Position numbers and translations under genes: made by a program. Positions 6,552-24,337 of a DNA stretch of 24,981 nt are shown here, piece after piece. The stretch is from a virus, in the IMG/VR virus record IMGVR_UViG_3300031565_000338, positions 1 through 24,981 of that record, one strand, 5' to 3'. Positions within the stretch are counted from its first letter, which is position 1, and every line of letters begins with the position of its first letter. A model generated the notes under the pieces. That model was not told the origin of the DNA. It ran no database searches and worked only from the letters and a program-made list of their open reading frames with translations.

Positions 6552-7132
6552 GTGAATATCCTATATGGTATTGTTAGCCGTTCAATCGTATTAAGTTTTT
6601 GAATGCTTCTTATTGCAACAGTATCTTCACGGTTCTCATACATCTCGGCTATCATAACTTTCATAGCCTGTTTTATGTTTTCGGGGACATCTGATTGTTT
6701 AGTTCCGTACCCAGCAACAAATGTTGTTTTTATAGGATTATTGGTTGCGAGTGTAGTTGAAGGCCATATCTCCCCATAATTCAGTACAGCTCTTCCCGGC
6801 TCGCTTACCGTATCAACATCATAACAACTTGAGCTTAATGTTGCTGCTGTTCCTCCGCTGTCTGTATAAATAATACTTGTAACCGATATTAACGGAGGGC
6901 GTGGTATAAGCAAGGCATTACCATCGGGAAACCAATCGAGATAATACTCAAATGTTTGTTGCAATAACGCACGTTTTAATAAAACATCTTCCGTATATAC
7001 CGTAGCAGCTTTTATTAAACTTTTTAAATAAACATCCTGATCACTCTCATCAACATTTAGCCGTAAATGTTCTTTTGCTTCTTTGATAGTAACAGGTTCT
7101 ATAGTTGGAGCTGTATTTACTTTTAATTTCAT
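6533..7132 (-). CDS. Head-tail connector, gp6-like (phiE125 gp8 family type)
   Basis: 199 residues; start ATG 7132 shares one base with the previous TAA. The N-terminal part (EPVTIKEAKEHLRLNVDESDQDVYLKSLI, read in two pieces) is the canonical 'v.t..eak.hlr.d...dd..l..li..A' helix bundle of gp6-like connectors. The longer form, with a middle beta-part (IPRPPLISVTSIIYTDSGG, YDVDTVSEPGRAVLN, TTFVAGYG) and a C-terminal helix (PENIKQAMKVMIAEMYENRE), is that of the phiE125 gp8 type. It forms a ring under the portal. Confidence 0.9.
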   Translation of the reverse strand: MKLKVNTAPTIEPVTIKEAKEHLRLNVDESDQDVYLKSLIKAATVYTEDVLLKRALLQQTFEYYLDWFPDGNALLIPRPPLISVTSIIYTDSGGTAATLSSSCYDVDTVSEPGRAVLNYGEIWPSTTLATNNPIKTTFVAGYGTKQSDVPENIKQAMKVMIAEMYENREDTVAIRSIQKLNTIERLTIPYRIFTCKQDN

Positions 7133-7491
7133 TATAAATTCTCCACTGCATCAATTCTTCTATTAAATTCATTGTCAAGCCTTGTTCGTACAGTATTATC
7201 CAATGTTGCGCTAAAAGTTAAATCATAAGTACCGGTTGTAAGCGTAGCCGGATATTTCAAGTATACTGTTACAACATTGGAAGATAGGCTCGCACCTTTT
7301 ACCATTTCTGCAGTTGCATCCGTACCATCCTGGTCTTCTACTGTTACAGAAATACTTGCGATATTAGTTCCATAAGGGATAGCCCCATCATTCAAACTTG
7401 CTGTGCTGCATGGCTCAAATTCAAATCTATATGGCACATAATTATCGTTGGGTCTCAGGACGATTCTTTCACTACCTTTAATATCTGGCAT
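7132..7491 (-). CDS. Probable small virion protein, Ig-like beta fold
   Basis: 119 residues, strong Shine-Dalgarno GGGAGGG before ATG 7491. The predicted strands (NIASISVTVEDQDGT, NVVTVYLKYPATL, GTYDLTFSATLDN) suggest an immunoglobulin-like sandwich. It ends with a short charged helix (RLDNEFNRRIDAVEN). I do not recognise the family. It lies directly before the connector gene, so a head-associated or fibre-associated structural role is reasonable but is inferred only from context. Confidence 0.6.
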   Translation of the reverse strand: MPDIKGSERIVLRPNDNYVPYRFEFEPCSTASLNDGAIPYGTNIASISVTVEDQDGTDATAEMVKGASLSSNVVTVYLKYPATLTTGTYDLTFSATLDNTVRTRLDNEFNRRIDAVENL

Positions 7492-7506
7492 TATTTATCC
7501 CTCCCA

Positions 7507-8007
7507 TTATACGCCATCATCAGCACCTGAGAGCGTGTATGTTATTTTTAACAAATCATCATCTACACAATGCCGGACTGATGCAAATTTAGAACCGCAC
7601 CAGAGTACATCAGCAGCTACCGTACTTCCTTTTGTGGCAGCACTTACAATCGCAGCACCATAAATCGTGGCGTTGGCATTCATTGTGAATGTAGCCTTAT
7701 TCCCATTTGTAACTTCTTTTCCAGAAGCAGCGCCCTCTAAATATTCAGGTCGTGTCGCTTCATCATATTCGGTGTTTTCAGTATATTGAGGAGCTGCATG
7801 AGTATCGGCTGAAGCCGTTGTTGTATTCGTATCAAAAATACAAACATACCATGTAGGCTCATTATCGTCATGGAAAAGAGAATCGAGAGCTTTGTTTACA
7901 CCCTCATTTGTGGTTAAATTTTTGCCCTCTGTCTCGCCTATTAGTTTCCCATCTCTCCAATGCTCACAATTAAAAACACCACCAAATTTCATTCCACTTT
8001 TATTCAT
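7507..8007 (-). CDS. Conserved phage virion-type protein of unknown function
   Basis: 166 residues, AGGGGG about 10 bases before ATG 8007; Met6 is a possible alternative. The layout resembles an uncharacterised protein group often seen in phage structural regions: a 'G.f....wRDGKLI.E.EGKNL.TNEGVNKALDSLF' opening, a WYVCIFDTNTTTA strand, YDEATRPEYLEGAASGKEVTN, then ATFTMNANATIYGAAIVSAATKG. The end is a rich beta-strand region. Probably a surface or tail-associated protein. The function is not known to me. Confidence 0.65.
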   Translation of the reverse strand: MNKSGMKFGGVFNCEHWRDGKLIGETEGKNLTTNEGVNKALDSLFHDDNEPTWYVCIFDTNTTTASADTHAAPQYTENTEYDEATRPEYLEGAASGKEVTNGNKATFTMNANATIYGAAIVSAATKGSTVAADVLWCGSKFASVRHCVDDDLLKITYTLSGADDGV

Positions 8008-8023
8008 TATCTATAACCCCCTG

Positions 8024-9751
8024 TTATTCAAAGTAAAAATCTCTGTCATCCGCCTCGAAATGAAACGGTCTTTTTGATAATACTATATAATAGTCTTTAT
8101 TTTTTGCCTTAAATTTAAATAAAGCTCCAGTCGTATTTACATAAACAACTTCAAGAGTATCGCCGAACCTGATTCCATCAGAAAGAGCAATATTAAATTC
8201 ACCAACAACAGTCGCACTATCACCGAATTTCATCCCATCAGTTAAAGTAACTACATAGGGACCGGCACTTTTAAGCAAATCACCAAACTTAACACCATCG
8301 GCAAGTGATACATTCATTTCTTTTAATACTGAAAGTGTATCTCCAAACTTCATGCCGTCTAATAAAATCAGATTCATTTCCTGAATCACGGCAAGCAATT
8401 CCCCAAACTTTATGCCATCGGTTAATGCGGAATTAAATTCCATATTGTTTAATAAAACTTCCCCCAATTTCATCCCATCTGTCAATGCTATTACATAGGG
8501 ACCGGCACTTGTCAATACATCGCCGAACTTAATGCCGTCTGTTTGTGATAAACCAAACTCACCTATATTTAATAAACTATCTCCCAACAATATTCCATCT
8601 GTTAATGTATCCTCATAAGTAGTACCACCACCACTAATTAATTCTTCACTTCCAAAATCCAGTAAATTATCTATTGCTGTTTCGCTTCCCGCCTTTGCCC
8701 ATGCTGCTGACCTTGCGATGCCTACCGAAACACGGGCTTCATCTATTAAACCTGTATAAAATAGACTCCAGCTTGGACCACCAGTAGAATCTCTTGCGCC
8801 AAGTGCAAAATATATAGAACTATCTAAATCATCTTCAGATATCGCAGTTGGGTCACCTATATCTGTTTGAACTGCTCCATCAACGTATATTTTCAAACCC
8901 GTTGCACTATCTCTATCACATACTCCCATAATCCAATGCTCTGCGTTATCGTTTAAGGCATTGTTGGAAAATACCTGTATACCAGTTCCTGCTGTTCTAA
9001 TTTGCATACATACTTTATCATCTGAATTAAGGACATATAAACCATATCCAGGATTACCGGACAGATAACCTTTTCCCATAATAGCAGCATAATCCGCACT
9101 TTGGTCTCCGGTATATTTAATCAATGCTTCAAGGGTTATGTCATTTAATCCAATATCTAAAGAAGCATGGTCTCCCATACTGATATATTCACCAGTTCCG
9201 CTAAAGTCCTGTCCCTCACCTCCAGGAGTTCCAGTTGTAAGCGTAGGTTCCCCAGCACCTTTCTTTGTTCCATCTGCATCCTCTGCTGTGCTATCTCTAA
9301 CATGAGAGCTATCAGGGTCATCCCGTAAATGTGTTGCAAGCTTATAATAGCTATCCCAGACATTCTCGGCTACTGCATCATTCGGGTCGCCAACATAAGT
9401 GTCATTATCGGCTTGTGCAGAATCATAATACAGGTATAAATCCGTATCACTACTGGAACTTATAGCATCCGCACCCGCAACCTTAACCCATAGCCATGCC
9501 TGTTCGCCGCCATCATCCCACTTCACAATCTCAACATATAATTGAGTCGTACCATCATCCTTCGTTACAGCAATTTTCTTCCTATTTGCATCATCGGTAA
9601 GTTCATCAAACACAAAAGAAATGTCATCACTGTTACGTCCGGATGATATACTTATATAAATGAGAATGGGAAAGTCGGTCAAATTAGCGTCTATATCAGT
9701 ATTGTCAATGGTAAGCTTTACACGCTTTGCCCATGTTCCGAGCCATGCCAT
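8024..9751 (-). CDS. DUF2341-LamG surface protein with eight 20-residue C-terminal repeats
   Basis: 575 residues, GAGGTG before ATG 9751. Residues 1-130 resemble DUF2341 (WAKRVKLTIDNTDIDANLTD, DLYLYYDSAQADND). Residues about 133-375 form a LamG/concanavalin-like domain (YYKLATHLRDD..., FSGTGEYISMGDHASLDIG, DITLEALIKY, LKIYVDGAVQTDIGD, GLIDEARVS). Residues 381-540 are eight units of exactly 20 residues with core LTDGxKFGDxL, followed by a basic/aromatic tail (FKFKAKNKDYYIVLSKRPFHF). No signal peptide or enzyme motif is visible. LamG domains often bind glycans, so an adhesin-like virion fibre or decoration is a plausible role, inferred from domain type and location. It lies two small genes downstream of a zinc-ribbon protein and upstream of the connector genes. 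Confidence 0.82.
   Translation of the reverse strand: MAWLGTWAKRVKLTIDNTDIDANLTDFPILIYISISSGRNSDDISFVFDELTDDANRKKIAVTKDDGTTQLYVEIVKWDDGGEQAWLWVKVAGADAISSSSDTDLYLYYDSAQADNDTYVGDPNDAVAENVWDSYYKLATHLRDDPDSSHVRDSTAEDADGTKKGAGEPTLTTGTPGGEGQDFSGTGEYISMGDHASLDIGLNDITLEALIKYTGDQSADYAAIMGKGYLSGNPGYGLYVLNSDDKVCMQIRTAGTGIQVFSNNALNDNAEHWIMGVCDRDSATGLKIYVDGAVQTDIGDPTAISEDDLDSSIYFALGARDSTGGPSWSLFYTGLIDEARVSVGIARSAAWAKAGSETAIDNLLDFGSEELISGGGTTYEDTLTDGILLGDSLLNIGEFGLSQTDGIKFGDVLTSAGPYVIALTDGMKLGEVLLNNMEFNSALTDGIKFGELLAVIQEMNLILLDGMKFGDTLSVLKEMNVSLADGVKFGDLLKSAGPYVVTLTDGMKFGDSATVVGEFNIALSDGIRFGDTLEVVYVNTTGALFKFKAKNKDYYIVLSKRPFHFEADDRDFYFE
8132..8611 (-). repeat. Eight tandem 60-bp in-frame repeats
   Basis: Within the LamG protein gene, eight consecutive 60-base units encode 20-residue repeats, with the invariant D-G at unit positions 5-6 and mostly KFGD/E at 8-11. 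Units 2 and 6 are the closest pair (both carry SAGPYV and are followed by a TDGMK unit). They lie four units apart, which suggests a 240-bp block duplication on top of the basic repeat. No unit shows a frameshift or stop. Confidence 0.93.
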
Positions 9752-9754
9752 TAA

Positions 9755-9982
9755 TTACACCTCTTTAACGGTAGCAGTTCTTAATGTCCTTAACTGAACT
9801 ACAATAGATTTCTTTTCTTCCTCAAGAGCATATTGCTTTTTGTTAAATACTGCCGAAGCAACTACACGTTCATCATTAACAGTGGCTAAAGCACCGTCTA
9901 TTGCTTGTAACTTCTGCATGAGGTCAGATGCTTCTAATTTCTGTTCTTGTGTCAATTCAATAAAACTAATTTCCGTTGTCAT
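9755..9982 (-). CDS. Small coiled-coil protein of unknown function
   Basis: 75 residues, good AGGAGAT Shine-Dalgarno before ATG 9982. Nearly the whole chain is predicted helical with two heptad-like segments (QEQKLEASDLMQKLQAIDGA and ALEEEKKSIVVQLRTLR), suggesting a coiled-coil hairpin. No family recognised. It is packed 2 bases from the zinc-ribbon gene and 3 bases from the LamG gene, so it is part of the same translation unit. A structural or chaperone-like role is only a guess. Confidence 0.6.
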   Translation of the reverse strand: MTTEISFIELTQEQKLEASDLMQKLQAIDGALATVNDERVVASAVFNKKQYALEEEKKSIVVQLRTLRTATVKEV

Positions 9983-9984
9983 TT

Positions 9985-10197
9985 TTATCTCCTAAAGAAT
10001 TTGGCTGTTCTACCCTTCGGTTTCGGCATTATCGCCTTCTCTGGCGGTTCAAGCATTGCGGTTTCGAAATCTTTCTTTTGGCACTCTGGACAAATATCAT
10101 AATTGTTTTTTTTGTTTCTGATTGCCGCTAATAATGAAGCATCAATTGTATTAAAGATTTTACCGCATTTTAAACATTTTGCATCTGTTGGTTTCAT
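9985..10197 (-). CDS. Small zinc-ribbon protein
   Basis: 70 residues; its ATG shares one base with the upstream TAA. Two CxxC knuckles, CLKC at residues 8-11 and CPEC near residue 36-39, are separated by about 25 residues, the spacing of a zinc ribbon. The C-terminal third is basic and proline-rich (PPEKAIMPKPKGRTAKFFRR). It could bind nucleic acid or protein. Similar tiny zinc ribbons are common in phage operons and mostly uncharacterised. Confidence 0.68.
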   Translation of the reverse strand: MKPTDAKCLKCGKIFNTIDASLLAAIRNKKNNYDICPECQKKDFETAMLEPPEKAIMPKPKGRTAKFFRR

Positions 10198-10526
10198 TAC
10201 TGGTCATCGCTCCAAATAACAGTTAAACCGTAACGTGTTGCACACTTCATATCAATATCAATAGCATCACCAGATTGCAGTTTTACAGAATTTGTTGGCT
10301 GATAATGATAATAGCTCTGTGCGCTCATTAACTGGGCATTCATTTTCATATCATAAGCCGCACCAGCATTTGAATTAATTGTTGTTATAACAGATGCCGC
10401 CGTACTTGTGGCCGCAAGATTTAACATAAATTCGTTAAATTGCCAAACACCAGTTGTCAGATTTTCCGGCGCCACCGAAGTATCAATTGTTGCTATTCCG
10501 GTTACTTCTATAAAATGTCTTGACAT
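10197..10526 (-). CDS. Probable small virion protein of unknown function
   Basis: 109 residues with a strong CGGAGG Shine-Dalgarno before ATG 10526. It is strand-rich and Thr/Ser/Ala-rich (TGIATIDTSVAPENLTTGVW, NLAATSTAASVITTINSN), without cysteine motifs apart from one Cys near the end. I do not recognise a family. It is the first gene after the glycan block and the first of the next run of small structural-type genes, so it may be a capsid or tail decoration and possibly a glycan acceptor (inference). Confidence 0.55.
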   Translation of the reverse strand: MSRHFIEVTGIATIDTSVAPENLTTGVWQFNEFMLNLAATSTAASVITTINSNAGAAYDMKMNAQLMSAQSYYHYQPTNSVKLQSGDAIDIDMKCATRYGLTVIWSDDQ

Positions 10527-10527
10527 A

Positions 10528-11583
10528 TTATTTACCTCCGTTCAATACTTCTTCATAAAGACTTTCTATTTGTTCAACTTGTTTGCTCATTAAAAATTCA
10601 TTTCTCAATTTCAATACATTTTTTCTTAATCTTCTTACATCACCAATCTGATCCTTCAAATTATCAAGGCTCTCAAGATTAACACCACATTTATGCTCAG
10701 TAACAAATTTACCAGCTTCTTTTGCATTGTAACATATTGGCACGACTCCCTGGGACATATATTCAAAAAGTTTATTCGGCATCGCTAACTGCATTAATGG
10801 TGTATTGATAGGACATCCGACAAAGCCAAGTCCATGTGGTCTTAATCCTGAAAGCATTGCCGGATACATTACGGGCTGTCCTACATATATTCCCATCATT
10901 TCATAAGCTTCCTGCTGTTGTGGTGTTGCCGCAAAGATGGTTACCGCAAAACCCTGTTCCCTGAATTTTGCAAATATGCCTGTTAGATTTCTTATATTAA
11001 CAACAACTTTTTGAGGAGAATTTTCGTATGGTTGTGGTTTGCTCTTAGAATCTATTCCACCTTCATAAACAATGGATTGGAAACTTGGATTCTTTATTAT
11101 GTCTTTATCGGAAGATACAAATTGCTCATCCATCCAGCAGTATATCACACGGCTTGGTAAACCATTCCCGTGTTCTTTTTCAGCAAATTCTCTTATCGGT
11201 TCGCTCACATGGATAATCCCGTCTGCTGCTGCAAATGCCTCAACCTCTTCTCCTTCTGCGTGATTATGCCATCTGAGACTTTCAAGATCGTGAACATCAT
11301 AAATAACAGGTCGTCCCTTAGAAACTTCCCGTGTCGCTGCTACTAACCAATCAGGTTCGTTGTGAACATGAAATATATCGGCACTTGAATTTAATATTAT
11401 TCTCCGCAGCTGGTTTTTATCATTATAGAGAATAGGAGTATCAAAAAAATGATAACCAAAAGGTACTTGATTGGCTATTAAATCTACTATATGCCCCCGT
11501 TTCATTAATGCAAGCGATTCTTTTATCACTCTTATACAGCCGTGTTGAGCTACCATTGCAATATGTAATTTGCCGTTTTCCAT
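10528..11583 (-). CDS. Glycosyltransferase, GT-B fold (GT4-like)
   Basis: 351 residues, GGAG 7 bases before ATG 11583; the start shares one base with the stop of the preceding glycosyltransferase. The N-terminal Rossmann half has HIAMVAQHG and ADIFHVHNEPDW (residues about 69-79), YDVHDL (95-100) and ADGIIHVSEPI. The C-terminal half has YEGGID (173-178) and MPNKLFEYMSQGVVPICYN (about 268-286), the 'PnKlfEYma.G.pvi' nucleotide-sugar-binding signature of GT4-type retaining enzymes. It should transfer a sugar from a nucleotide donor onto an acceptor in the cytoplasm; no membrane segment is visible. Neither donor nor acceptor can be read from the sequence. Last gene of the five-gene sugar block. 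Confidence 0.85.
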   Translation of the reverse strand: MENGKLHIAMVAQHGCIRVIKESLALMKRGHIVDLIANQVPFGYHFFDTPILYNDKNQLRRIILNSSADIFHVHNEPDWLVAATREVSKGRPVIYDVHDLESLRWHNHAEGEEVEAFAAADGIIHVSEPIREFAEKEHGNGLPSRVIYCWMDEQFVSSDKDIIKNPSFQSIVYEGGIDSKSKPQPYENSPQKVVVNIRNLTGIFAKFREQGFAVTIFAATPQQQEAYEMMGIYVGQPVMYPAMLSGLRPHGLGFVGCPINTPLMQLAMPNKLFEYMSQGVVPICYNAKEAGKFVTEHKCGVNLESLDNLKDQIGDVRRLRKNVLKLRNEFLMSKQVEQIESLYEEVLNGGK

Positions 11584-12596
11584 TAATAAGCTCCATTAAT
11601 AAGATTTTTATAGACGGTTTCCCATAAACGCCCTGATGTTGCCGGTATACTGTGATATCTTTCAGCCCAATCTCTATGAAGCATTTTTCTTTCTTTTATT
11701 TCCGCATCGGGCATATCACATATTTCTTTTATTCTTTGTTCAAGCATTTCCTTATCATTTGCAATAAAAAGAGGCGGTATATTATTATATTCCTTTTTAT
11801 AAATATCCTGTCGTATAGAATTGGTTATCACGAGTTTGCCAAGCGCAGCAGCTTCAAGGGCAGTATTGCCCCATTCTCCGAAGGGTTTACCCCTCAACTC
11901 CGGTTGTATGGTTTCGATTATCACATCACATTTTCTCATACGCTCTATATTTTCGTACCAATATATTTGTTCATTATGAAGCCCCTGCAGCCCAACATAT
12001 TCAAATCGCTTTCCATATTCCGTTTTCTTTAATTTTTCTAAAACATCAATTATTATCTTTGTGCCTTTTGCTGTCCAATCGCTCGGAAAATGTCCTATAA
12101 TGAGTTTACCCTTTCCGCAGGTATTAAAATCTTTAGGTTTTATGTAATCTGTATCTACCGGATAATAAACAAGATGTTCATTCTTTGCACCGTAACCAAG
12201 CAATGTGGGGAATTGTATTATTGCAGCATCGGCGAATTGGTTGAATAATTTATTAACTGCTTCGGATTCAAGTCTATAGGTTGTACCGCCGTGTTGTACA
12301 ACTACTTTTTTGGTTCTTAAATCTACCCCTGTATCAATAAGGGTACTGGCAATAAAATGAATAATATCGGCTTTCTTTGCGAGATATTGAAGTTCCGGGA
12401 CTCTTACAACTACGGGAAACCAAGCCAAGGGTTTCTTCTCAGCTATTGCCTGATGAATGGCAGCCTGTTCTGGATAATTAAATTTATGTAAATTTCCTTT
12501 AAAATATGTCACATTTAAACCAAGATGTTTCAGGCATCTACTGAAACGATAACCCGTGTTTGCCCAATCATTGTAAGTCAGCATAAGAACATTCAT
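11583..12596 (-). CDS. Glycosyltransferase, GT-B fold
   Basis: 337 residues; start ATG 12596 overlaps the stop of the deacetylase-methyltransferase gene in an ATGA. The N-terminal half contains VLMLTYNDWANTGYRFS, ADIIHFIAS and VVVQHGGTTYR (98-108). The second half contains HFPSDWTAKGTKIIIDVL (169-185) and GEWGNTALEAAALGKLVITNS (240-260), equivalent to the conserved 'E..A.GkPvi' donor-binding region of GT-B enzymes. It has no transmembrane part. It is clearly paired with the next gene and probably adds successive sugars of one glycan (inference). Specificity unknown. Confidence 0.8.
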   Translation of the reverse strand: MNVLMLTYNDWANTGYRFSRCLKHLGLNVTYFKGNLHKFNYPEQAAIHQAIAEKKPLAWFPVVVRVPELQYLAKKADIIHFIASTLIDTGVDLRTKKVVVQHGGTTYRLESEAVNKLFNQFADAAIIQFPTLLGYGAKNEHLVYYPVDTDYIKPKDFNTCGKGKLIIGHFPSDWTAKGTKIIIDVLEKLKKTEYGKRFEYVGLQGLHNEQIYWYENIERMRKCDVIIETIQPELRGKPFGEWGNTALEAAALGKLVITNSIRQDIYKKEYNNIPPLFIANDKEMLEQRIKEICDMPDAEIKERKMLHRDWAERYHSIPATSGRLWETVYKNLINGAY

Positions 12597-13924
12597 GTGG
12601 TTTTCCTTTCAAGCCAGTAAAGATTTCTGTTATTTGCTATTCCATAAAATTTAAGATTAAATCCTTTTAAAAATATCACTTTGAATTTTGTATCACCTAT
12701 ATACCAGTATTTCTTTCCCCGTTGTTTCGCTTCTCTATATCGGTCTGCTGTTGCCGTTGTCAATATTATATCTTTATAATTCAGGCATAGTTCATAAAGT
12801 TTATGATAATCTACAGGTAAATCCTCGGCAGCGAGAAAAACAAATATATCGCCAGGGATATGTTTACCATCGAATATGTCTTTAGCAATAAGATGAGGAG
12901 CATATCCAAGAGCATTAAACATAACCTTGCCAACTTCTATAAACTTCGGTTCTATATCCGCCCCGATATATTTAAGATTATTGGGTTCTGTCAAATACAT
13001 TCCCAGAAGTCCAATACTACAACCGGCATCAACAAGAGTTATTAATTCTCTATATCTGTCGGCAGCGATTCTCATTATTATTTCCTGTGCTTTTAATAAA
13101 TGAGCGGTGTTTTCGATCCATTGTTGTGAATAAGTTGTCAATCTGTTTTGAAATTTTGACTGGATTATATGTATATTCTGCGTATTGACAGGTAATCCGC
13201 CAAGTTTTTTGGTATAAATAGCGTCTTGATTCCTCCAGAAAACTTCTTCTGTGGTATGGTAATGAACTGGATGTGTTTGTATATAAGCCGGCATATCATC
13301 TTTTATACAATCAAAATATTCCATAGGGCTTTTTAATACATGACCACTAAATAACTTACCGCCACTATCTGACATCACGGTTGGTTTAACTTTATGAAAA
13401 CAGGCTGTCTTAAAACTCATTGGTAATTTCGGTTCATAAGTTGAATTTGTTTCTATATCACGGTTTGTATATTCCGGGACTGGCACAATTCTTGAATCAT
13501 AAAAATGCCCGACAATGGAATGCGGATTCATTCCTTCTTTTCTCATTGTCCCGACATCTTTTAAATATTGTTCCCATGCTTCGTCTGGCGGGTAATCATA
13601 AGCCACATTTATATGAAGTCCAAAACCGAAACCATCACCTCGATATTCATTGTAAAGTTCTTTTATATCATCTATGCTATATGAGGGACTATGAATATCC
13701 ACATATACTACACTGTTCAAACCAAATCTTCTTTCAAGTTCAAGCATACACCATGCTGTTTTTATATCGAAATCAATATCATGCCGGATTATTATATTCT
13801 TTTCTTTACAGTATTTGAGCCATTTCTTATAGCTTCGTATACCGTTTTCAGAATTTTGCTGGTCTATACCAAATCTATCAAGATATTTTCGGGGTTTTAA
13901 TTTAGTTTTTGTTAACATTACCAT
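12593..13924 (-). CDS. Fusion: NodB-like polysaccharide deacetylase domain plus SAM-dependent methyltransferase domain
   Basis: 443 residues; ATG 13924 shares one base with the stop of the methyltransferase before it. Residues about 40-225 look like the 'RHDvD' branch of the NodB/CE4 deacetylase fold: IIIRHDIDFD at 44-53, GFGLHIN at 100-106, GHFYDSR near 139-145 and HPVHYH at 218-223 supply the expected Asp and His ligands. Residues about 280-440 are a class I methyltransferase with motif I LVDAGCSIGLLG (297-308), an acidic second strand (IGADIE) and the strand FVFLAAEDLPVD. Such deacetylases remove N- or O-acetyl groups from sugars; the second half would methylate a sugar or related acceptor. 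The pairing in one chain is unusual. Activity of the first domain is uncertain because the catalytic Asp-His-His set is not fully standard. Confidence 0.72.
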   Translation of the reverse strand: MVMLTKTKLKPRKYLDRFGIDQQNSENGIRSYKKWLKYCKEKNIIIRHDIDFDIKTAWCMLELERRFGLNSVVYVDIHSPSYSIDDIKELYNEYRGDGFGFGLHINVAYDYPPDEAWEQYLKDVGTMRKEGMNPHSIVGHFYDSRIVPVPEYTNRDIETNSTYEPKLPMSFKTACFHKVKPTVMSDSGGKLFSGHVLKSPMEYFDCIKDDMPAYIQTHPVHYHTTEEVFWRNQDAIYTKKLGGLPVNTQNIHIIQSKFQNRLTTYSQQWIENTAHLLKAQEIIMRIAADRYRELITLVDAGCSIGLLGMYLTEPNNLKYIGADIEPKFIEVGKVMFNALGYAPHLIAKDIFDGKHIPGDIFVFLAAEDLPVDYHKLYELCLNYKDIILTTATADRYREAKQRGKKYWYIGDTKFKVIFLKGFNLKFYGIANNRNLYWLERKTT

Positions 13925-14496
13925 TATTTTCTCACCATCACAATACGTTCATTATTGCCAGATTTTAAAACCACTGATAAAATTGTATTCTTAAATTGTG
14001 CCTTTCGTATAAAATCAATCATCACCTCATTCGTAAAACCCCACTGATGATGTTTATTATACCTACCATAGATTAAATGCGGTTTGTTTCTCTCTATGTA
14101 CCATATCACCAGCGCACCCTTGCTTTTCAATACCCGATAAGCCTCATTAATAGCAAGTTGCGGGTCTATCATGTGATCAATAGTGCTTGCAAAAAGTACA
14201 CATTCAAAAGTTTCATTATCAAATGGTAAATCCTCACCGGTACCGCAAATAAAATCAAACTCTCTATCAACCTCATCTTTAAATGGATCGATGCCATAAA
14301 ACTGTATATTCGGCTGGTCTTTCATGTATGCCGGTTCTGGCAATAACCCACATCCGACATCAAGGCATCTCCCTTCAATATTATCTCTTAGAAAAACGCC
14401 GACCTCATGAGCCTCTTCACAATCATCAACAGAAAACACTCCAGCTGGTGATTTCTCATAGGCTTCATGCTCGACAGTTTGTAACTGTTCCCACAT
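13924..14496 (-). CDS. Class I SAM-dependent methyltransferase
   Basis: 190 residues from ATG 14496, chosen because AGGG lies just upstream; an open extension to TTG 14556 lacks a good site. The start lies inside the epimerase/dehydratase gene (32-base overlap). Motif I is GRCLDVGCGLLPEP (42-54), the acidic end of strand 2 is YGIDPF (67-72), and later motifs are GTGEDLPFDNETFECVLFAS and AINEAYRVLKSKGALVIWY, typical of Methyltransf_11 enzymes acting on small molecules or sugars. Its place between a sugar epimerase and the deacetylase-methyltransferase suggests a sugar O- or N-methylation role (inference). Confidence 0.83.
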   Translation of the reverse strand: MWEQLQTVEHEAYEKSPAGVFSVDDCEEAHEVGVFLRDNIEGRCLDVGCGLLPEPAYMKDQPNIQFYGIDPFKDEVDREFDFICGTGEDLPFDNETFECVLFASTIDHMIDPQLAINEAYRVLKSKGALVIWYIERNKPHLIYGRYNKHHQWGFTNEVMIDFIRKAQFKNTILSVVLKSGNNERIVMVRK

Positions 14497-15424
14497 ATTC
14501 ACCCTTTTTTTGTCGAGTTCTATATTTCTGTGTATACCATTCAATAACTTTTTCAAGTTCCCCCGCTAAATCGTTGTTATATTCAAACCCTAAATTACCT
14601 TTTTCAAATTTAAATCTTTTTATATCACCTTTCTTTGCGGATGCATATTCGATATTTCTTATCCTGTTCGGCATAAGCTTATAAATAAGCCATGCAAGAT
14701 CATTTATTGCTATTCTCACATCTGAAACCACATTATGAATTGTGTGTCTTAGATAACCATTTTCCGATACTGCAAAATTAGCTTTCACTACATCATTGAC
14801 TGATGTAAAATGACGCTCCTGTTCACCACTGCCATAAATTATTACAGGCTTTCCTTCCCATATTCTCTTTATAAAAATCGGTATAACTCCACCGTTATCG
14901 GAATCATCCTGACGTGTCCCATATACATGATAATACCGAAGAATCGTATATTTGAAATCGGGATAATATTCATGCATTACGCTTAAATATTTTTCAGCCG
15001 TCATTTTACTTGTACCATAAAACGACACCGGATAATTATTGTTCACCGAACCCGTCGAAGCATGAATAACTTTCTTTACCCCATATTCCTGTGCAGCTCT
15101 GAATACATTCAAAGAACCCCATGCGTTTGTCATTAAATCAACATAAGGGTCGTTTCTGCAAACCGTACATTTTGATGCAGCATTATGAAACACTACATCT
15201 ACACCTTTGAAGTGATGGGATATGGCTTTATAATCGCTTATATCTGCTTTTATAAGTTTACATTGTTTAAGAACCCAAAAAGGCTTTAAATTCTCCATTA
15301 ATCCGGTTTTAAAGTTGTCAATAACAACTATTTCTTTCCCTTGTTTAACAAGTTCCTCGCAAATATGACTTCCTATGAAGCCAGCACCACCGGTTATAAG
15401 ATATTTGTTATATTTTAACACCAT
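14465..15424 (-). CDS. NAD-dependent nucleotide-sugar epimerase/dehydratase (extended SDR)
   Basis: 319 residues from ATG 15424; GTG 15433 and GTG 15421 are alternative starts and the Shine-Dalgarno GAGGG is very close. Cofactor-binding TGGAGFIGSH (11-20), acidic VIDNF after strand 2, NAAS (81-84), catalytic Ser/Thr in HASTGS (121-126) and YGTSK (136-140) are all present. RHFTSVNDVVKA matches the conserved 'R.f.yv.D.a.a' region. The enzyme would act on an NDP-sugar (4-epimerisation or dehydration) in the cytoplasm and so supply a donor for the two glycosyltransferases downstream. The exact sugar cannot be told. It is the first gene of the five-gene block, 7 bases after a small structural-type gene. 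Confidence 0.87.
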   Translation of the reverse strand: MVLKYNKYLITGGAGFIGSHICEELVKQGKEIVVIDNFKTGLMENLKPFWVLKQCKLIKADISDYKAISHHFKGVDVVFHNAASKCTVCRNDPYVDLMTNAWGSLNVFRAAQEYGVKKVIHASTGSVNNNYPVSFYGTSKMTAEKYLSVMHEYYPDFKYTILRYYHVYGTRQDDSDNGGVIPIFIKRIWEGKPVIIYGSGEQERHFTSVNDVVKANFAVSENGYLRHTIHNVVSDVRIAINDLAWLIYKLMPNRIRNIEYASAKKGDIKRFKFEKGNLGFEYNNDLAGELEKVIEWYTQKYRTRQKKGEYVGTVTNCRA

Positions 15425-15439
15425 ATCCCTCACTTTTTA

Positions 15440-15832
15440 TTAAGTTCCGACCGCAAGCCAGCTCAACGAACCAGCAACATTAGCCACAGCAATAGTACCC
15501 GCTGTGGCATCTGTTCTGAAACGGTAAGCAGTAAGCGTACCCCCGGAGATTTTATAAGTCAGGACAGTTCCTTCCATCGCTGGCGTTGCATTACAACCTT
15601 CTGTCGTTAAGGCACAGCCTGCTATCGTTGTCAGCCCAGTCGTGATTGCAACTGAAGCTGTCGCAACGCTTGTTCCTCTTGCCAACTTATAATTACCGGC
15701 TATTCCCACTACAGTCTTGTTGAAATCAAAATTATGATTATCAGCAGGACTGATAACGGCAATAGATTTATTAAGAGATGCGTCTTTTATTACGGTCTTC
15801 CCTAAAGAAGCTTCGTATTTAATATTGTGCAT
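15440..15832 (-). CDS. Probable capsid-associated (decoration-type) protein
   Basis: 130 residues; ATG 15832 is chosen over GTG 15841 because AAGGAGG sits 8 bases upstream. After a short polar N-terminus the protein is very rich in Thr, Ala and Ser (LARGTSVATASVAITTGLTT; ISGGTLTAYRFRTDATAGT) and ends in SLSWLAVGT. This pattern of short strands is typical of small head decoration or fibre proteins. It lies two genes after the major capsid protein and just before the glycan block, so it is a good candidate virion surface protein. No definite family. Confidence 0.65.
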   Translation of the reverse strand: MHNIKYEASLGKTVIKDASLNKSIAVISPADNHNFDFNKTVVGIAGNYKLARGTSVATASVAITTGLTTIAGCALTTEGCNATPAMEGTVLTYKISGGTLTAYRFRTDATAGTIAVANVAGSLSWLAVGT

Positions 15833-15845
15833 ATCAGACACCTCC

Positions 15846-16322
15846 TTAGACTATTGCAGTCTTGGTTGTAGCTTTCTGATATCTCGCACCGCTCAATATG
15901 GCTATAATATCTACATACGTAACAGCGCCCGGATCCTCAACCGTAACCTGCAAGCTTGGATACCCGTCGGTAAGTTCAGAGTCGTCAATTTCTATAACAG
16001 CAAATTGACTGACTGTTGCACCAACCCTCAGACCGGCAGCTGTTGCAGTTCCTCTCGCCTCAAGAGTATCACCGGTAGTTGTTCTTTCCCGATAATATCC
16101 AAATGCAATCGGCGTTGAATTTGTCGGAGTAAAATCATCGCACTCATCAACTGTCACACGTACAGAAGCACCAACGGTATTTCCGCCCGTTCTGACAATA
16201 ATAGATGCATGAGCATAATCCTCAAGAGTAAACACATCACTAACAGCGCCCCCGTCCACATTCTGTGAAGGGAGAATATTAACAACATGACCTTCTTCAG
16301 CTAAATTAATTCCAGCTTTCAT
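15846..16322 (-). CDS. Probable head structural protein following the major capsid gene
   Basis: 158 residues, GGGAGG before ATG 16322. The start (MKAGINLAEEGHVVNILPSQ) and the YAHASIIVRTGGNTVGASVRVTV stretch (given here beyond a single motif) look like an uncharacterised family found right after HK97-type capsid genes. The rest is beta-rich (QFAVIEIDDSEL, LQVTVEDPGAVTYVDIIAI). A head-decoration or capsid-stabilising role is inferred from position only. It is separated by 19 bases from the capsid gene. Confidence 0.65.
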   Translation of the reverse strand: MKAGINLAEEGHVVNILPSQNVDGGAVSDVFTLEDYAHASIIVRTGGNTVGASVRVTVDECDDFTPTNSTPIAFGYYRERTTTGDTLEARGTATAAGLRVGATVSQFAVIEIDDSELTDGYPSLQVTVEDPGAVTYVDIIAILSGARYQKATTKTAIV

Positions 16323-16341
16323 TATTTATTCCTCCCTTCTA

Positions 16342-17655
16342 TTAACGAGATGCAAGTTTAATGAATGCACTTTGTGTATTGTCTCCTTTATATGGAGTTA
16401 TTGCTGATTCATATAAAGGTTGACCATTTACACGGTATACAAATCTCAATATCGATTCATCATAGAGAAATCTAACATGAATCGAGCTTGCCTGTTGTAT
16501 ACCACCCTTGTCGATTGTGATATATTTGCTCATATCAACGAGCATAATATCACCGACTGTTCCGAGTGTTTCCGCCTGTTCAATCGGCGTAATCGGTCTA
16601 CCAAGTAATGACCCAAAGGGTGCATTAGAAAGTCCGCCCGCCGGAATAAACATCGGCACTCCACCAGCACCAACCGAATGGCTAAGCTGGAAAATCTGAG
16701 GCCAGCAATCCTGATTAATAAGCCATTCAGAACGTGGCAAAGAACCCGCAAACATTCTTGCATACATCTTTTCAATATTCTCAGCTTTTATAGTTGTTGC
16801 TGTTTGATTCGTCTCTTTCCCAACTGAAATTGTGCAACCGGCACTCTTAATACCAAGTGGCTGTCCTACACCCGTGCCTTCAAAAATAGCGCAATCAAGT
16901 TTAAACCCGATTTCTTCACGGAATCCTTCAGTTACCCATGCTTCAAGAGCTGTAGTATCTTCGATAAGCTCATCAGTCAGATAAACAAGACCGATAAGTT
17001 TCTGGAGACTAAGTTCCATTACACGGAATTTGGGATCACTCTTTGTTTTCAGAGCAGCTTCGGCCGCCCAGTAACAACGAATACCGCCCCACCTGTAACC
17101 GTCTTTTCTGCTTGTTTCGTCTATACCATAGCCTTTTAAGCTATTGGCAGTTGCAGAAATCGGCATACGCTTTACTTTTCTGGAAAGTATACCAGTTTCA
17201 TGAGCTACCTCTACAAGTTTGCCGGCGAAATCCTGTTGAATTAAATATCCACCATCGCTTGGCACACCTTCGCTCATACCGGACGCTCTCTGCTCTATCA
17301 ATCTTTTATCAACAGGGCCGACAGCGGCTTGTCCTACTATCTTACCGGCATAAACTACGGCACTCATAAAATCACCCATAGACTTAAAGCGGTTTTCCCC
17401 TCCACCGTCTGGATTACCTTGAATATTTTCCAGATAAGGTTTTGAGGTCGGCTCTTTGAGAAAATCACCTGTTTTCCGGATACGTTCCTCCGTGGAAATC
17501 TTTTCAGAAAGCTCATCAATCTCATCTAAGATTTTAGTAGCTTCCTCGATTTCCTCTTTGGTTTTATCACGTTTTTCCTTTTCACAAGTTTTTTTCATCT
17601 CATCGAGCTTTTCCCACTTCGCAGTCCTTTCACCTATAAGCTCTTCTGTATTCAT
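16342..17655 (-). CDS. Major capsid protein, HK97 fold
   Basis: 437 residues from ATG 17655; the in-frame ATG at 17667 overlaps the protease stop but has no Shine-Dalgarno, whereas GAGG lies 6 bases before 17655. Residues 1 to about 70 are a highly charged coiled coil, the delta/scaffold domain usually removed by the prohead protease. Then come GVPSDGGYLIQQDFAGKL, a family landmark, and the HK97 core through SEWLINQDCWPQI, LLGRPITPIEQAETLG and IMLVDMSKYITI, to LRFVYRVNGQPLYESAI. This is the HK97 gp5 family, slightly longer than the 385-residue prototype. The cleavage site is likely just before residue 100, but cannot be fixed from the sequence. Confidence 0.93.
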   Translation of the reverse strand: MNTEELIGERTAKWEKLDEMKKTCEKEKRDKTKEEIEEATKILDEIDELSEKISTEERIRKTGDFLKEPTSKPYLENIQGNPDGGGENRFKSMGDFMSAVVYAGKIVGQAAVGPVDKRLIEQRASGMSEGVPSDGGYLIQQDFAGKLVEVAHETGILSRKVKRMPISATANSLKGYGIDETSRKDGYRWGGIRCYWAAEAALKTKSDPKFRVMELSLQKLIGLVYLTDELIEDTTALEAWVTEGFREEIGFKLDCAIFEGTGVGQPLGIKSAGCTISVGKETNQTATTIKAENIEKMYARMFAGSLPRSEWLINQDCWPQIFQLSHSVGAGGVPMFIPAGGLSNAPFGSLLGRPITPIEQAETLGTVGDIMLVDMSKYITIDKGGIQQASSIHVRFLYDESILRFVYRVNGQPLYESAITPYKGDNTQSAFIKLASR

Positions 17656-17666
17656 TTTAAACCTCA

Positions 17667-18362
17667 TTATTTCTTAATTTTTAGTTGTGTTTCTTTAATA
17701 CGCAAATTCAGGTTGTCATTTGCGAGCTTCTGCTTCGCAATTTCTTCCTCTTCGGCAAGCATCTGCTGTGCCGGCACTTCTTTTTCCTTATTAAAATTCT
17801 CAAGTGACCTTAATGCCACAGATGTATCTGGATATGCAGGATATGTCACGGGTGACACATCGAGTAAATCAACCTCGACAAGTGTTCTTTCCGCAGACCC
17901 ATCTTTTTTGTATACCCAATCATCTTCTATTGTGCGGAATGCAAAACTTTGTTGTGTTATATCACCACGCTCTATGGAAACCATTATATCCCGTGCGTTC
18001 TGTGTGTCCGGCGGAATGACTTCCATAAACAGTCCGGTATCATCTTCTTTTAGTTTCAATGTCTTGGCTTTTGTCCTGCCAAGAACGATATTCGGATCGT
18101 GATTAAACAATGCCCGTATATCGCTTTTCTTAATTGTTTTCTCAAAAGCACCGGGATTTATTTTCTCACGGAATCCCATTAAATCAGATGACCATTTATC
18201 AAATACCGCAGCATACCCGACTATCTTTTTCACTCCATTTTCATCTGCAGCTACACGCAGTTCGGTCGTTATATTCCTTTTTTCGATATGTTCTATCTCA
18301 CTGTCCCCTTTTTTATTTCTTCTGTTTCCTATTTTATCCAAAATAAAATTAGTTGAAAGCAT
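17667..18362 (-). CDS. Prohead (capsid maturation) protease, U35 / HK97 gp4 family
   Basis: 231 residues from ATG 18362, which overlaps the end of the asparagine-synthase-like gene by 14 bases and is preceded by GGGGG. Signature elements: VGYAAVFDKWS (about 48-58), INPGAFEKTI, ALFNHDPNIVLGRT with the catalytic His at 88, ERGDITQQSFAF with the catalytic Ser at 139, and LLDVSPVTYPAYPDTSVALRS. The C-terminal 40 residues are a charged coiled coil, common for proteases that co-assemble with the capsid protein. It digests the capsid delta domain and itself inside the prohead. Confidence 0.93.
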   Translation of the reverse strand: MLSTNFILDKIGNRRNKKGDSEIEHIEKRNITTELRVAADENGVKKIVGYAAVFDKWSSDLMGFREKINPGAFEKTIKKSDIRALFNHDPNIVLGRTKAKTLKLKEDDTGLFMEVIPPDTQNARDIMVSIERGDITQQSFAFRTIEDDWVYKKDGSAERTLVEVDLLDVSPVTYPAYPDTSVALRSLENFNKEKEVPAQQMLAEEEEIAKQKLANDNLNLRIKETQLKIKK

Positions 18363-19095
18363 CACAAAACCCCCTTTTTTCTCTGTTAATAACCCATTCG
18401 GGTACACCAATCATTGCTGCAAATTTTTTCCAAAGCTTTTTGCTGTCATCTTTCCCAACTCTGTTTTTGAGAGGGATTTTTGAGATGTAGTTCACAATTG
18501 GTTCATGAAGAAATATCCAATCTATATTCACACCTACCTTTTTAGCTGATTCGTACATAGGAGATAAATGTTTCTCTTCAAGCCGATTCCAAAAATATTC
18601 AAACGCTATATCTATTTTTGGAAATTCTGTATTCCTGTGACTATGCCACCAATAACCACCCATTAGCTCATCTATCCCATCTGTAGCTAAAAGAAATTGG
18701 GAGAAACAAGAAACAAACTTTAAGGCAAGATATACTGAACTATCTCCTGGAAATTTATCCTTTATTAATTCTCTTGCTACAGAGATATTTCTTTTATCTG
18801 GAATCCATATTTTTATATTTAAATCTTTTTCTTTCGCTAATTTTATAGCAGAAAAAACATCAGGGTGTTCACAGGAACTACCAATCGTAAAACATGTTAT
18901 CCCTGGTTTAATTTCTTTCAAAAGAAGCGCAAGAATAGAACTATCAACTCCTCCGCTTAAAAGCATACTCGGATTTTTAATATCTCCCATAGATTCCTGA
19001 ATTTCGTGCTTCAGAATTACATAGAGTTCATCTAAATCGTAAGGTTCTGGGCTAATCTTCCAATTGCCTATTTGCGCAGGGTATCGTCTCGCCAT
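18349..19095 (-). CDS. Stand-alone asparagine-synthase-like ATP-pyrophosphatase domain protein
   Basis: 248 residues from ATG 19095, chosen because GAGGAGG lies 9 bases upstream. Its start lies 44 bases inside the His-rich gene and its end overlaps the protease start. The PP-loop LLSGGVDSS (45-53) and TDGIDELMGGYWW (138-150) are the two hallmarks of the asparagine synthase C-terminal domain, and NREKRGFCDAF near the end matches the region that positions a catalytic Lys. There is no N-terminal Ntn glutaminase domain (no Cys2), so it would need free ammonia, a partner, or another amine. Such domains adenylate a carboxylate to make an amide. Relatives modify asparagine, sugars, lasso peptides or other small substrates. 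It is unexpected between portal and protease. QueC-type chemistry is less likely given the DELMGGY motif. Confidence 0.8.
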   Translation of the reverse strand: MARRYPAQIGNWKISPEPYDLDELYVILKHEIQESMGDIKNPSMLLSGGVDSSILALLLKEIKPGITCFTIGSSCEHPDVFSAIKLAKEKDLNIKIWIPDKRNISVARELIKDKFPGDSSVYLALKFVSCFSQFLLATDGIDELMGGYWWHSHRNTEFPKIDIAFEYFWNRLEEKHLSPMYESAKKVGVNIDWIFLHEPIVNYISKIPLKNRVGKDDSKKLWKKFAAMIGVPEWVINREKRGFCDAFN

Positions 19096-19372
19096 CCGCA
19101 ATTGCCTCCTCATTAGACCAATAGATATCTTGGTCATCCTTTAAACCAGTCAAACAATGATGTATCTTTCCATCATCCCCTTTAATGTGATTTATCTCGT
19201 ATAGGTTTCCCAAATGGTCAACCATAAAACAATGATGAATTATCTCTTCTCCAGTATCCCCGTCAACATGAATATGATGAATCAGATATTCCCAATCCTC
19301 AAGCCCTTCTCCTTCTTCTGCTTTTAGTCTATTCAAAAAAGACTCGACTCTTTCTCTCAATTTTTCTTCCAT
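19052..19372 (-). CDS. Small His-rich acidic protein of unknown function
   Basis: 106 residues from ATG 19372, which has AAGGAT 8 bases upstream. An upstream extension to TTG 19426 would overlap a better-supported mini-ORF and has no site. A helical charged N-terminus (EEKLRERVESFLNRLKAEEG) is followed by three related His units: IHHIHVDGDTGEEI (31-44), IHHCFMVDHLGNLYEIN (45-61) and KGDDGKIHHCLTGL (64-77). Together they have eight or more His and two Cys in HHC pairs, so metal binding is plausible. The asparagine-synthase-like gene starts inside it, so the two are probably translated together. It could be a substrate, a partner or an unrelated virion component. I do not recognise a family. 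Confidence 0.65.
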   Translation of the reverse strand: MEEKLRERVESFLNRLKAEEGEGLEDWEYLIHHIHVDGDTGEEIIHHCFMVDHLGNLYEINHIKGDDGKIHHCLTGLKDDQDIYWSNEEAIADGETIPCANRQLED

Positions 19373-19392
19373 TTTATTATCCTTCTGTATAT

Positions 19393-19431
19393 CTATTTTC
19401 TTTTCTTCTTTTTCCCTTTTCCGCAAGGCAT
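19393..19431 (-). CDS. Mini-ORF, 12-residue very basic peptide
   Basis: ATG at 19431 is preceded by GGAGATAAG, with AAAGGAG giving the best Shine-Dalgarno of this region. It encodes MPCGKGKKKKRK and then TAG at 19395-19393. It lies between the terminator-like hairpin and the His-rich gene, whose own site is about 20 bases downstream of the stop. It could be a real small basic protein or a leader peptide that tunes translation of the cassette. So strong a ribosome-binding site before so short a frame argues that it is translated; function is unknown. Confidence 0.45.
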   Translation of the reverse strand: MPCGKGKKKKRK

Positions 19432-19450
19432 CTTATCTCCTTTGGGCAAA

Positions 19451-19492
19451 CAAAAAACGGCAATGTGATGGTGTGGCACCACACTGCCGTTT
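19451..19492 (-). terminator. Intrinsic terminator-like hairpin after the portal gene
   Basis: On the transcribed strand an 8-bp outer stem AAACGGCA / TGCCGTTT (19492-19485 with 19462-19455) encloses a second stem GTGTGG / CCACAC and an 8-base bulge. The right arm runs into TTTTTTGTTT. This has all parts of a Rho-independent terminator and lies 55 bases downstream of the portal stop. It sits in the middle of an operon whose essential capsid genes are further downstream, so it would have to be leaky, antiterminated or bypassed by another promoter. Confidence 0.72.
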
Positions 19493-19526
19493 AATGTTTC
19501 TTAGCTATCGCACGCCTGCAGGACGC

Positions 19527-19555
19527 TTGACAGAACCCTTGTTATTTTAAATAAT
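19527..19555 (+). promoter_or_regulatory. Sigma70-like promoter candidate, antisense to portal
   Basis: TTGACA (19527-19532), a 17-base spacer and AATAAT (19550-19555, five of six to TATAAT) on the plus strand, pointing into the 3' end of the portal gene against the operon. No plus-strand gene follows. The match is good by consensus but may be chance in A+T-rich DNA; if active it would make an antisense RNA. Confidence 0.2.
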
Positions 19556-21547: not shown

Positions 21548-21550
21548 TTT

Positions 21551-21700
21551 TTATAATCTCGCTGTTAATATTCCTAATATTATTATTATTAAACCTGTAA
21601 TACTATAAGCTAACCATGGTTTGAATAAATAAAATCCAATAAATAATGAAACAATACCTATAATTACTATTATCTCACTTATTCCTATCCATTTTCTCAT
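21551..21700 (-). CDS. Small membrane protein, two transmembrane segments
   Basis: 49 residues; ATG 21700 overlaps the large terminase stop in an ATGA, and its own TAA ends 3 bases before the portal start, so it fills the gap exactly. The sequence starts MRKWIGISEI, then two hydrophobic stretches (about residues 10-26 and 30-46) flank FKPW. It would be an inner-membrane hairpin protein. No family recognised. Exact coupling to both essential neighbours argues it is a real gene. Candidate roles are superinfection or membrane effects, but nothing in the sequence decides. Confidence 0.62.
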   Translation of the reverse strand: MRKWIGISEIIVIIGIVSLFIGFYLFKPWLAYSITGLIIIILGILTARL

Positions 21701-23268: not shown

Positions 23269-24337
23269 TGATAAAACCGGTTTCAAGAATATTAATAATT
23301 TTGTCTGCTGCATGACCATCGCCATACAATAATCCCTGACTACCATTGATTTTATGTGAGCCGGAATAATCTTTATATAATATATTCCAGCCACTTTCCA
23401 CTGTTTCTGTCCACTCGGTTTCTTCCCGCAAGGTAATACAGGGAACTTTGAGCCAATAGGCTTCTTTTTGCATTCCTCCTGAATCAGTGAGAAGAAGTTT
23501 GCTGTTTTTTAATAACATTATCGAATCAAAATAGCTTACAGGATCAATAATTTTTATATTATCGGCAAATGTATGTTTTATAAAATAATCATTATAAATA
23601 TTCATACTTCTGGGATGCATCGGGAAGATGATTTCTTTATCATTTGCCACACTATTAACAAATGAAATTATTTCCTTGAACTTTTCTATGTTGTCTGTAT
23701 TTTCGGGACGGTGAATAGTGAGCACCCCATATTCCTTTTCCCGCAATCCTAAGCTATCGATAATATCGGATTTCTTCTCAGCGATTTCTTTTGCGTTGAG
23801 TAAAACATCATACATGACATCGCCGGTATTAATCCCGTTAGTAATTCCTTCTATTTTAAGTTGCTTTACAGCATTCTCGCTCGAGCAAAAAAGATATGTC
23901 GATATGTGGTCGGTCAATATTCTATTTATTTCTTCTGGCATATATTTATTAAAACTTCTCAAACCAGCCTCCACATGAGCAACAGGAATATGAAGTTTTA
24001 CTGCAGCAAGCATACCCCCAAGTGTTGAGTTTGTATCGCCATATACAATTACAACATCGGGTCTTTCCTCAAACAAAACCTCTTCTGTTTTCTTAAGGAT
24101 TTCTGCGGTCTGTCTCCCATGAGTGCCGGAACCAACACAAAGGTAATAATCCGGGACTTTCATGCTGAATCCATCAAAAAATATCTTCGACATATTGTAA
24201 TCATAATGCTGACCCGTATGAACCAATACATCGTTAATTCTGGCATCTGTTTGTATATTAAAACGCACAATAGCATTTGATATTGGAAAGTATTTGATAA
24301 ATTGAGGTCTTGCTCCAACAATATTGATTATCTTCAT
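23261..24337 (-). CDS. UDP-N-acetylglucosamine 2-epimerase (non-hydrolysing, WecB-like)
   Basis: 358 residues from ATG 24337, which has AGGAAAG upstream; the open frame to 24394 has no site and covers a structured non-coding stretch. Family residues are all visible: GARPQFIK (8-15), HTGQHYDYNMS, YGDTNST (Asp101), HVEAGLRS (Glu123), MPEEINR (Glu135), TIHRPENT (His209), FPMHPR and LTDSGGMQKEA (Asp285). The acid residues and His line up with the E. coli WecB catalytic set D95/E117/E131/H213. Reaction: UDP-GlcNAc to UDP-ManNAc, a cytoplasmic donor step. It lies between the small and large terminase genes and overlaps the latter. It looks complete and active. Confidence 0.93.
   Translation of the reverse strand: MKIINIVGARPQFIKYFPISNAIVRFNIQTDARINDVLVHTGQHYDYNMSKIFFDGFSMKVPDYYLCVGSGTHGRQTAEILKKTEEVLFEERPDVVIVYGDTNSTLGGMLAAVKLHIPVAHVEAGLRSFNKYMPEEINRILTDHISTYLFCSSENAVKQLKIEGITNGINTGDVMYDVLLNAKEIAEKKSDIIDSLGLREKEYGVLTIHRPENTDNIEKFKEIISFVNSVANDKEIIFPMHPRSMNIYNDYFIKHTFADNIKIIDPVSYFDSIMLLKNSKLLLTDSGGMQKEAYWLKVPCITLREETEWTETVESGWNILYKDYSGSHKINGSQGLLYGDGHAADKIINILETGFINE

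Follow-up and report, generated by a model that had tools for sequence, protein, structure and literature searches.

Glycoproteins are generally regarded as a rarity in phages, and the examples in the literature we read come from mycobacteriophages. Glycosylated proteins are reported in Che8, Corndog and Myrna, with Che8 gp110 and Corndog gp38 named as essential capsid glycosyltransferases (GTs) (PMC12363180), and phage-encoded GTs modify the capsid protein in Che8-type (cluster F) phages (PMC11256854, PMC12363180). Maravista, an F1 phage, has its GT genes near the genome 3' end (PMC11256854). Here we describe a block of five predicted sugar-pathway genes in the head operon of the viral record IMGVR_UViG_3300031565_000338 (positions 1 to 24,981, hereafter the window), which is identical end to end to bases 23092-48072 of the 48,072-base IMG/VR contig 3300031673_000087. 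We consider it probable (about 0.72) that this block, together with a WecB-type epimerase and perhaps an asparagine-synthase-like gene of the same operon, forms a late cytosolic pathway that glycosylates a capsid-shell protein before release.

In Corndogvirus (Corndog, Firecracker, Catdawg), as in the window, methyltransferase and GT genes lie within the head operon near the major capsid protein (MCP) gene. In Firecracker, an O-methyltransferase and two annotated GTs separate portal from capsid protease; Catdawg has the same arrangement with three annotated GTs, whereas the window's block follows the MCP gene. The annotations of these two blocks show none of the nucleotide-sugar epimerase, WecB and NodB-like genes that the window has, and phmmer (E 1) found nothing homologous to the Firecracker block or capsid genes among the window proteins. 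Because capsid glycosylation is also reported for Corndog (PMC12363180), a capsid-glycosylation block in a head operon has precedent. The preliminary description of this DNA had taken a full pathway embedded in this way as apparently new; that view needs correcting in so far as glycan blocks embedded in a late operon have been seen before. The window differs from Corndogvirus in its enzymes for donor-sugar synthesis and NodB-like tailoring, in its GT family, and in that its cassette recurs with many types of head; our limited search of the open-licence literature found no paper describing this cassette. Compared with the Che8-type phages, the window's two GTs (GT1 and GT2) are in the head operon instead of at the 3' end as in Maravista, and neither matches the deposited phage genomes in INPHARED. 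Gtr cassettes of temperate phages, which carry a membrane flippase and membrane GTs near the attachment site (att), share phage-encoded sugar transfer with the window, but neither these membrane proteins nor an integrase/att neighbourhood was found in the window's block. By analogy, the closest system in logic is the chlorovirus PBCV-1, in which a mostly soluble, cytosolic pathway of GTs and O-methyltransferases (A064R, A061L, A111/114R) equips the major capsid protein with an atypical glycan (PMC9614988). PBCV-1 differs in being a eukaryotic virus with an N-glycan and with genes reported to be expressed early; we compared it through the literature, not by sequence (PMC9614988).

Five enzyme genes among head genes

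The block and its immediate neighbours are listed below in the direction of transcription. Other contigs carrying relatives are given by locus number (L023 and so on), with percent identities to the window protein.

16342-17667, minus strand: MCP, HK97 fold (TIGR01554, 1.6e-59; phrog_10, 2e-39)
15846-16322, minus strand: small head gene directly after the MCP gene (homologues in L023, 49%, and in L040, L042, L043 and L049)
15440-15841, minus strand: orf15440, small head-module protein with a modelled C-terminal beta-sandwich, candidate acceptor
14465-15433, minus strand: nucleoside-diphosphate-sugar epimerase/dehydratase, an extended short-chain dehydrogenase/reductase (SDR; PF01370, 6e-45; phrog_540, 1e-57), starting at GTG 15433 or ATG 15424
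13924-14496, minus strand: S-adenosylmethionine (SAM)-dependent methyltransferase (MT; PF08241, 5.8e-15); the longest open reading frame (ORF) runs to 14556, ATG 14496 preferred
12593-13924, minus strand: fusion of a putative NodB/CE4-like domain (RHDID..GLHIN) and a SAM-methyltransferase-like domain (DAGCSIGLLG), from indirect evidence
11583-12596, minus strand: GT2, second GT4-like glycosyltransferase (PF13692 sub-threshold; (L)EAAALGK motif; homologues)
10528-11583, minus strand: GT1, GT4-type glycosyltransferase with HVHNEPDW and PNKLFEY motifs (PF13439, 1.5e-12)
10197-10526, minus strand: small gene of the head module, next after GT1 (homologue at the same position in L023, 37%)

The block thus runs SDR, MT, NodB-like/MT fusion, GT2 and GT1 between the MCP and two small head genes on one side and the head-tail adaptor on the other. 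All five ORFs are real, in keeping with the preliminary description of overlapping, same-strand genes amid head genes: the GT2 start overlaps the stop of the NodB-like gene by 4 nt, the GT1 start overlaps the GT2 stop by 1 nt, and the start of the fusion overlaps the MT stop by 1 nt. With the most likely MT start, ATG 14496, the MT gene overlaps the end of the SDR gene by about 30 nt, and GT1 ends 1 nt short of the next small head gene.

The enzyme labels first given to these genes were not equally firm. Judged from sequence profiles, the family calls for SDR, MT, GT1 and WecB are secure. GT1 exceeded the Pfam Glyco_transf_4 cutoff (48.3 versus 28.5 bits); its profile has a sole PDB match, a partial C-terminal one to 4w6q (2.5e-7), a listed glucosyltransferase, which we treat as a lead only. 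SDR has homologues in L026 (58%), L176 (47%) and L167 (38%). The labels of GT2 and of the NodB-like domain are weaker than had been implied. GT2 scored 17.3 bits, under the 27-bit Pfam cutoff, and matched no PDB profile, but it carries the GT4-like LEAAALGK motif and has homologues at 26 loci in total, among them L026, L030 and L024 (47-55%). The NodB part of the fusion had no direct Pfam match, PF01522 included. The fusion has a full-length 34% homologue in L166/L167; it also matches, weakly, a phage RHDLD/GLHFD protein on L178 and bacterial RHDVD proteins, one of which (L160) is barely over the PF01522 cutoff (23.6 versus 23.1 bits). Its single-sequence AlphaFold model was of low confidence (pLDDT 38).

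Recurrence of the cassette in head modules

A search of IMG/VR with an alignment of 11 GT1 sequences located the family at 44 loci, the window's own contig and 43 further viral contigs. GT1 queries from four subclades (the window, L063, L072 and L025) found no match by tblastn among the 50,697 deposited phage records of INPHARED, nor did GT2, and GTDB genomes gave remote GT1 matches only (best about 24% identity). On present sampling, GT1 is therefore a family of uncultured phages.

In 22 of the 34 representative contigs, an identified MCP gene lies no more than 3 kb from GT1, and TerL, portal or MCP is within 7 kb of it in 33 of the 34. IMG/VR contigs are recognised by hallmark genes, however, which inflates closeness to the MCP in short contigs and tells against a plain reading of such counts. 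We therefore limited the position test to contigs of at least 20 kb. There, GT1 was within 3 kb of the MCP gene in 13 of 17, against 3.6 expected at random (p ~1e-6), and in 6 of 10 after related contigs were collapsed, against 1.8 expected (p 0.003).

Five MCP families were found beside GT1 or GT2: phrog_10 (the window, L025, L055 and L071), phrog_267 (L024 and its cluster), phrog_1357 (the L063 cluster), phrog_334 (the L031 cluster) and phrog_9953 (L030 and L167). The GT1 tree places the window in a group of five, with 97/94 support, whose heads are partly phrog_10 and partly phrog_267. On this tree the MCP family has to change 13 times, against a minimum of 5, a rough count because contigs of unknown MCP were treated as a group of their own. 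GT1 and the head genes have changed partners, while GT1 has kept its place within or next to the head module.

Parts of the block recur together in these modules. L026 carries SDR, a 389-residue protein, GT2 (52%) and GT1 (41%) between portal and scaffold/MCP, and at the same position in L053 a PF02350 epimerase directly precedes GT1. The MCP gene of L176 is followed by two small genes and then SDR, MT (33%) and GT2 (45%), in the order seen in the window; that of L167 by a 267-residue gene, a GT-A-like gene (by eye), SDR, the NodB/MT fusion, GT2 (50%) and a gene partly similar to a window tail protein. L027 and L028 have a large, putatively carbohydrate-binding-like protein (a reading of its sequence), then an orf15440-type gene and GT1; in L028 a confirmed sulfotransferase (PF00685) follows GT1, with a homologue in L027. 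In L063 and its relatives the order is MCP, small gene, GT1, methyltransferase, GT and GT9, and in L031 it is portal, a scaffold-like gene, GT1, further genes (one GT9-like by eye) and MCP. L025, at 71% GC, has MCP, an orf15846-like gene (by eye), an orf15440-type gene, GT1 and the head-tail adaptor Ad1. In many cassettes, the gene immediately before GT1 is a small one of the head module or that of the MCP.

From these comparisons, the block is best described as a modular, recurrent cassette and not as random cargo. Its parts recur in order beside head genes, rather than as the sporadic, unrelated cargo that the preliminary description had considered, though the MCP-related L042 lacks the block. 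The same description had asked whether related phages keep the block next to the same small structural genes: the parts do recur in head modules, but the adjoining small upstream gene comes from unrelated families. Relatives of GT2 were also seen in L172, L175, L177 and L181, contigs of 35-110 kb with 25-31% GC, within runs of many sugar genes; these AT-rich clusters are possibly a reservoir for cassettes.

The late operon and the rest of the contig

Genuine head genes flank the block, as profile matches to the TIGR01554 MCP, HK97 portal, protease, Ad1 and head closure protein Hc1 indicate. The minus-strand late operon holds, in this order, TerS, WecB, TerL, portal, a 124-residue ORF, the asparagine-synthase-like gene, protease and MCP, then 15846-16322, 15440-15841, the five-gene block, small genes and a large DUF2341-type protein, and after these Ad1, Hc1, a neck protein, tail genes and the tape measure. 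Homologues of the 15846-16322 gene also sit after the MCP gene in relatives, and its product is probably a decoration protein. Two further enzymes lie upstream of the MCP gene:

23261-24394 (longest ORF; ATG 24337), minus strand: UDP-GlcNAc 2-epimerase of WecB/WbpI type, between TerS and TerL (TIGR00236, 9e-89)
18349-19137, minus strand: asparagine-synthase-like ATP-pyrophosphatase, between portal and protease (PF00733, 1e-17, profile positions 21-153 of 354)

WecB, of the non-hydrolysing type, passes the curated TIGR00236 cutoff (298 versus 210 bits), and its closest PDB relatives are UDP-2,3-diacetamido-glucuronic acid 2-epimerases and 4neq. The asparagine-synthase-like gene matches only the ATP-pyrophosphatase half of PF00733, with no glutaminase domain in Pfam or TIGR scans, and aligned with the 389-residue protein of L026 at an hhalign probability of 5.5%. 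Both had been counted in a set of seven sugar or amide genes. WecB belongs there, since the epimerase-GT1 pair in the L053 head module ties it to the pathway, but the asparagine-synthase-like gene could not be firmly tied to it. WecB homologues also occur in OR844989, OR845006 and OR849864, whose names assign them to Staphylococcus phages; one of the three is an unannotated record of 282 kb. Because these may be bacterial sequence deposited as phage, WecB counts in the phage collection need care.

Promoter-like sites in 7000-24981 numbered 59 versus 66 in shuffled sequence, so we saw no sign of separately promoted morons, although a scan of this kind cannot exclude them. Terminator-like sites were in slight excess (14 versus 10.5). 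The strongest in the region scanned, a 16-pair hairpin followed by TTTGTTT at 19455-19492 on the minus strand, lies between portal and the asparagine-synthase-like gene and may attenuate late-operon transcription. Between the cassette and Ad1, 8024-9751 encodes a 575-residue protein with a DUF2341-like N-terminal part and C-terminal repeats of a DG(I/M)KFGD motif (repeat units of 91 and 48 nt in the DNA); it may be a further head or fibre protein. A baseplate-hub-type protein (207-2021) has a CBM_4_9 carbohydrate-binding domain between an N-terminal attachment domain and a C-terminal BR0599 domain.

Outside the window, the contig carries a tyrosine integrase, a helix-turn-helix (HTH) repressor-like gene and replication/recombination genes; given the first two, the phage is probably temperate. 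From the HNH-like protein at the left end alone, which would be upstream of TerS if the ends meet, we infer that the contig is near-complete. On L015, a candidate superinfection-exclusion gene lies between the HTH repressor-like gene and the integrase and encodes a small probable lipoprotein (14552-15049; LFSGC lipobox, by eye), and a DUF5131 protein (9204-10004) also matches the candidate defence models PDC-M41B and PDC-M30B. The PADLOC defence library gave no convincing match for the five block enzymes or for the WecB-like and asparagine-synthase-like proteins; a weak match of MT to mad2 probably reflects the methyltransferase fold only.

Proposed function, acceptor and competing explanations

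Building on the gene identities, their order and their conservation in head modules, we infer the following late-expressed pathway. WecB and SDR would reshape a host UDP-sugar; in the cytosol, GT1 would attach a first sugar to a capsid-shell protein and GT2 the following one; the NodB-like domain would remove an N-acetyl group, and the two methyltransferase domains would cap hydroxyls.

As acceptor, we consider either a small head-decoration protein beside the cassette (orf15440 or the product of 15846-16322) or the MCP most likely. The AlphaFold2 model of orf15440 had a pLDDT of about 87 (mostly 85-91) for most of residues 51-133. In VIA-align comparisons it reached Z values of 8.4 with the R2 pyocin fibre, 8.2 with AP22 gp53, 7.7 with discoidin II and 7.0-7.4 with snail agglutinins, which is the edge of the range that can mean a common arrangement; many of the top matches in the fold search were sugar-binding or phage-fibre domains. 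The modelled C-terminal domain is thus a candidate relative in shape of phage-fibre knobs and H-type lectins. In the window, orf15440 is immediately upstream of SDR, and its relatives are immediately upstream of GT1 in L023, L025, L027 and L028 and, weakly, in L067.

Several observations weigh against this reading. Some phages in which we found no GT1 have orf15440 relatives too, so the protein may be a shared capsid knob and not an obligatory acceptor. The small genes upstream of GT1 in different phages belong to unrelated families; that of the phrog_1357 group has no detectable relation to orf15440, which makes it unlikely that one acceptor family serves all cassettes. Some GT1 loci have no identified MCP, and head relatives such as L042 do without the block, which is consequently not essential. 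The link of the asparagine-synthase-like gene to the pathway is weak, as is its assignment, and the NodB-like label, supported indirectly, is weak as well.

Of the competing explanations, a change of the host cell surface, late or in the lysogen, is unlikely, though the most probable of them; it could mask receptors, exclude superinfection or change serotype. The probable temperate lifestyle would suit it. So would the enzymes: NodB-like, WecB and SDR proteins are typical of O-antigen and capsule clusters, and WecB's closest PDB relatives are polysaccharide-type 2-epimerases. Gtr-type conversion, however, needs a flippase and membrane transferases, and a simple hydropathy scan revealed no clear membrane protein in the block, where the 19-residue maxima were 0.8-1.6, or in the other cassettes examined. 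This argues against a flippase or Gtr-type route and disfavours lipid-linked assembly, although a few cassette proteins reach 1.7-1.8, a further point against us, so that finding no membrane segments depends on a simple threshold. The integrase, at 15.0-16.1 kb of the contig (G001), is also at least about 17 kb from the block at about 33.6-38.5 kb, and GT1 relatives stay in the head modules of unrelated phages.

Opportunistic cargo, collected without joint function at a tolerant insertion site in the late operon, we regard as improbable. L042, whose MCP is 51% identical to the window's, does have a block-free version of the site, with a homologue of 15846-16322 separated from an Ad1-type gene by two small genes; cassette content varies, and GT2 relatives also appear in the large sugar clusters of AT-rich contigs. 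Yet order is kept across phages (SDR-MT-GT2, SDR-NodB/MT-GT2, GT2-GT1, WecB-GT1), and adjacency to head genes recurs. Glycosylation of phage DNA into hypermodified bases that resist restriction is very improbable and went unsupported: DNA-modifying phage glycosyltransferases exist (literature cited in PMC12619734), but the ten left-arm proteins scanned with Pfam include no base-hydroxymethylase or TET-like enzyme (two are N6/N4 DNA methylases, the rest replication, recombination or uncharacterised proteins), and DNA-modifying GTs are not expected to track capsid genes.

We therefore favour virion glycosylation, because the GT1/GT2/SDR set sits in the head modules of five MCP families, no clear membrane protein accompanies it, and Corndog-type phages have an analogous head-operon block. 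Where virion glycosylation and a late host-surface change had been offered as alternatives, the first is the one these data favour. A broader scenario, to which we give even odds, is that a capsid-glycosylation cassette, built on a GT family so far met only in uncultured phages, moves among phages of five or more capsid families, each time settling within or next to the head genes, and exchanges tailoring enzymes (SDR, WecB, NodB-like, methyltransferase, sulfotransferase, GT9), thereby varying the sugars that coat the capsid or lectin-like fibres borne on it.

The distribution of the cassette hints that capsids covered in custom sugars, made by the phages themselves, are common among environmental phages. 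If so, a whole class of uncultured phages would devote late-gene space to its own capsid sugars, with swappable tailoring steps that resemble chlorovirus capsid glycosylation. The HVHNEPDW GT1 family beside an MCP gene offers a sequence marker for such phages, and the small neighbouring head proteins are candidate acceptors. It would also give reason to seek selection acting on capsids outside the host, through binding to mucus or matrix, grazing, antibodies or receptor-independent sticking.

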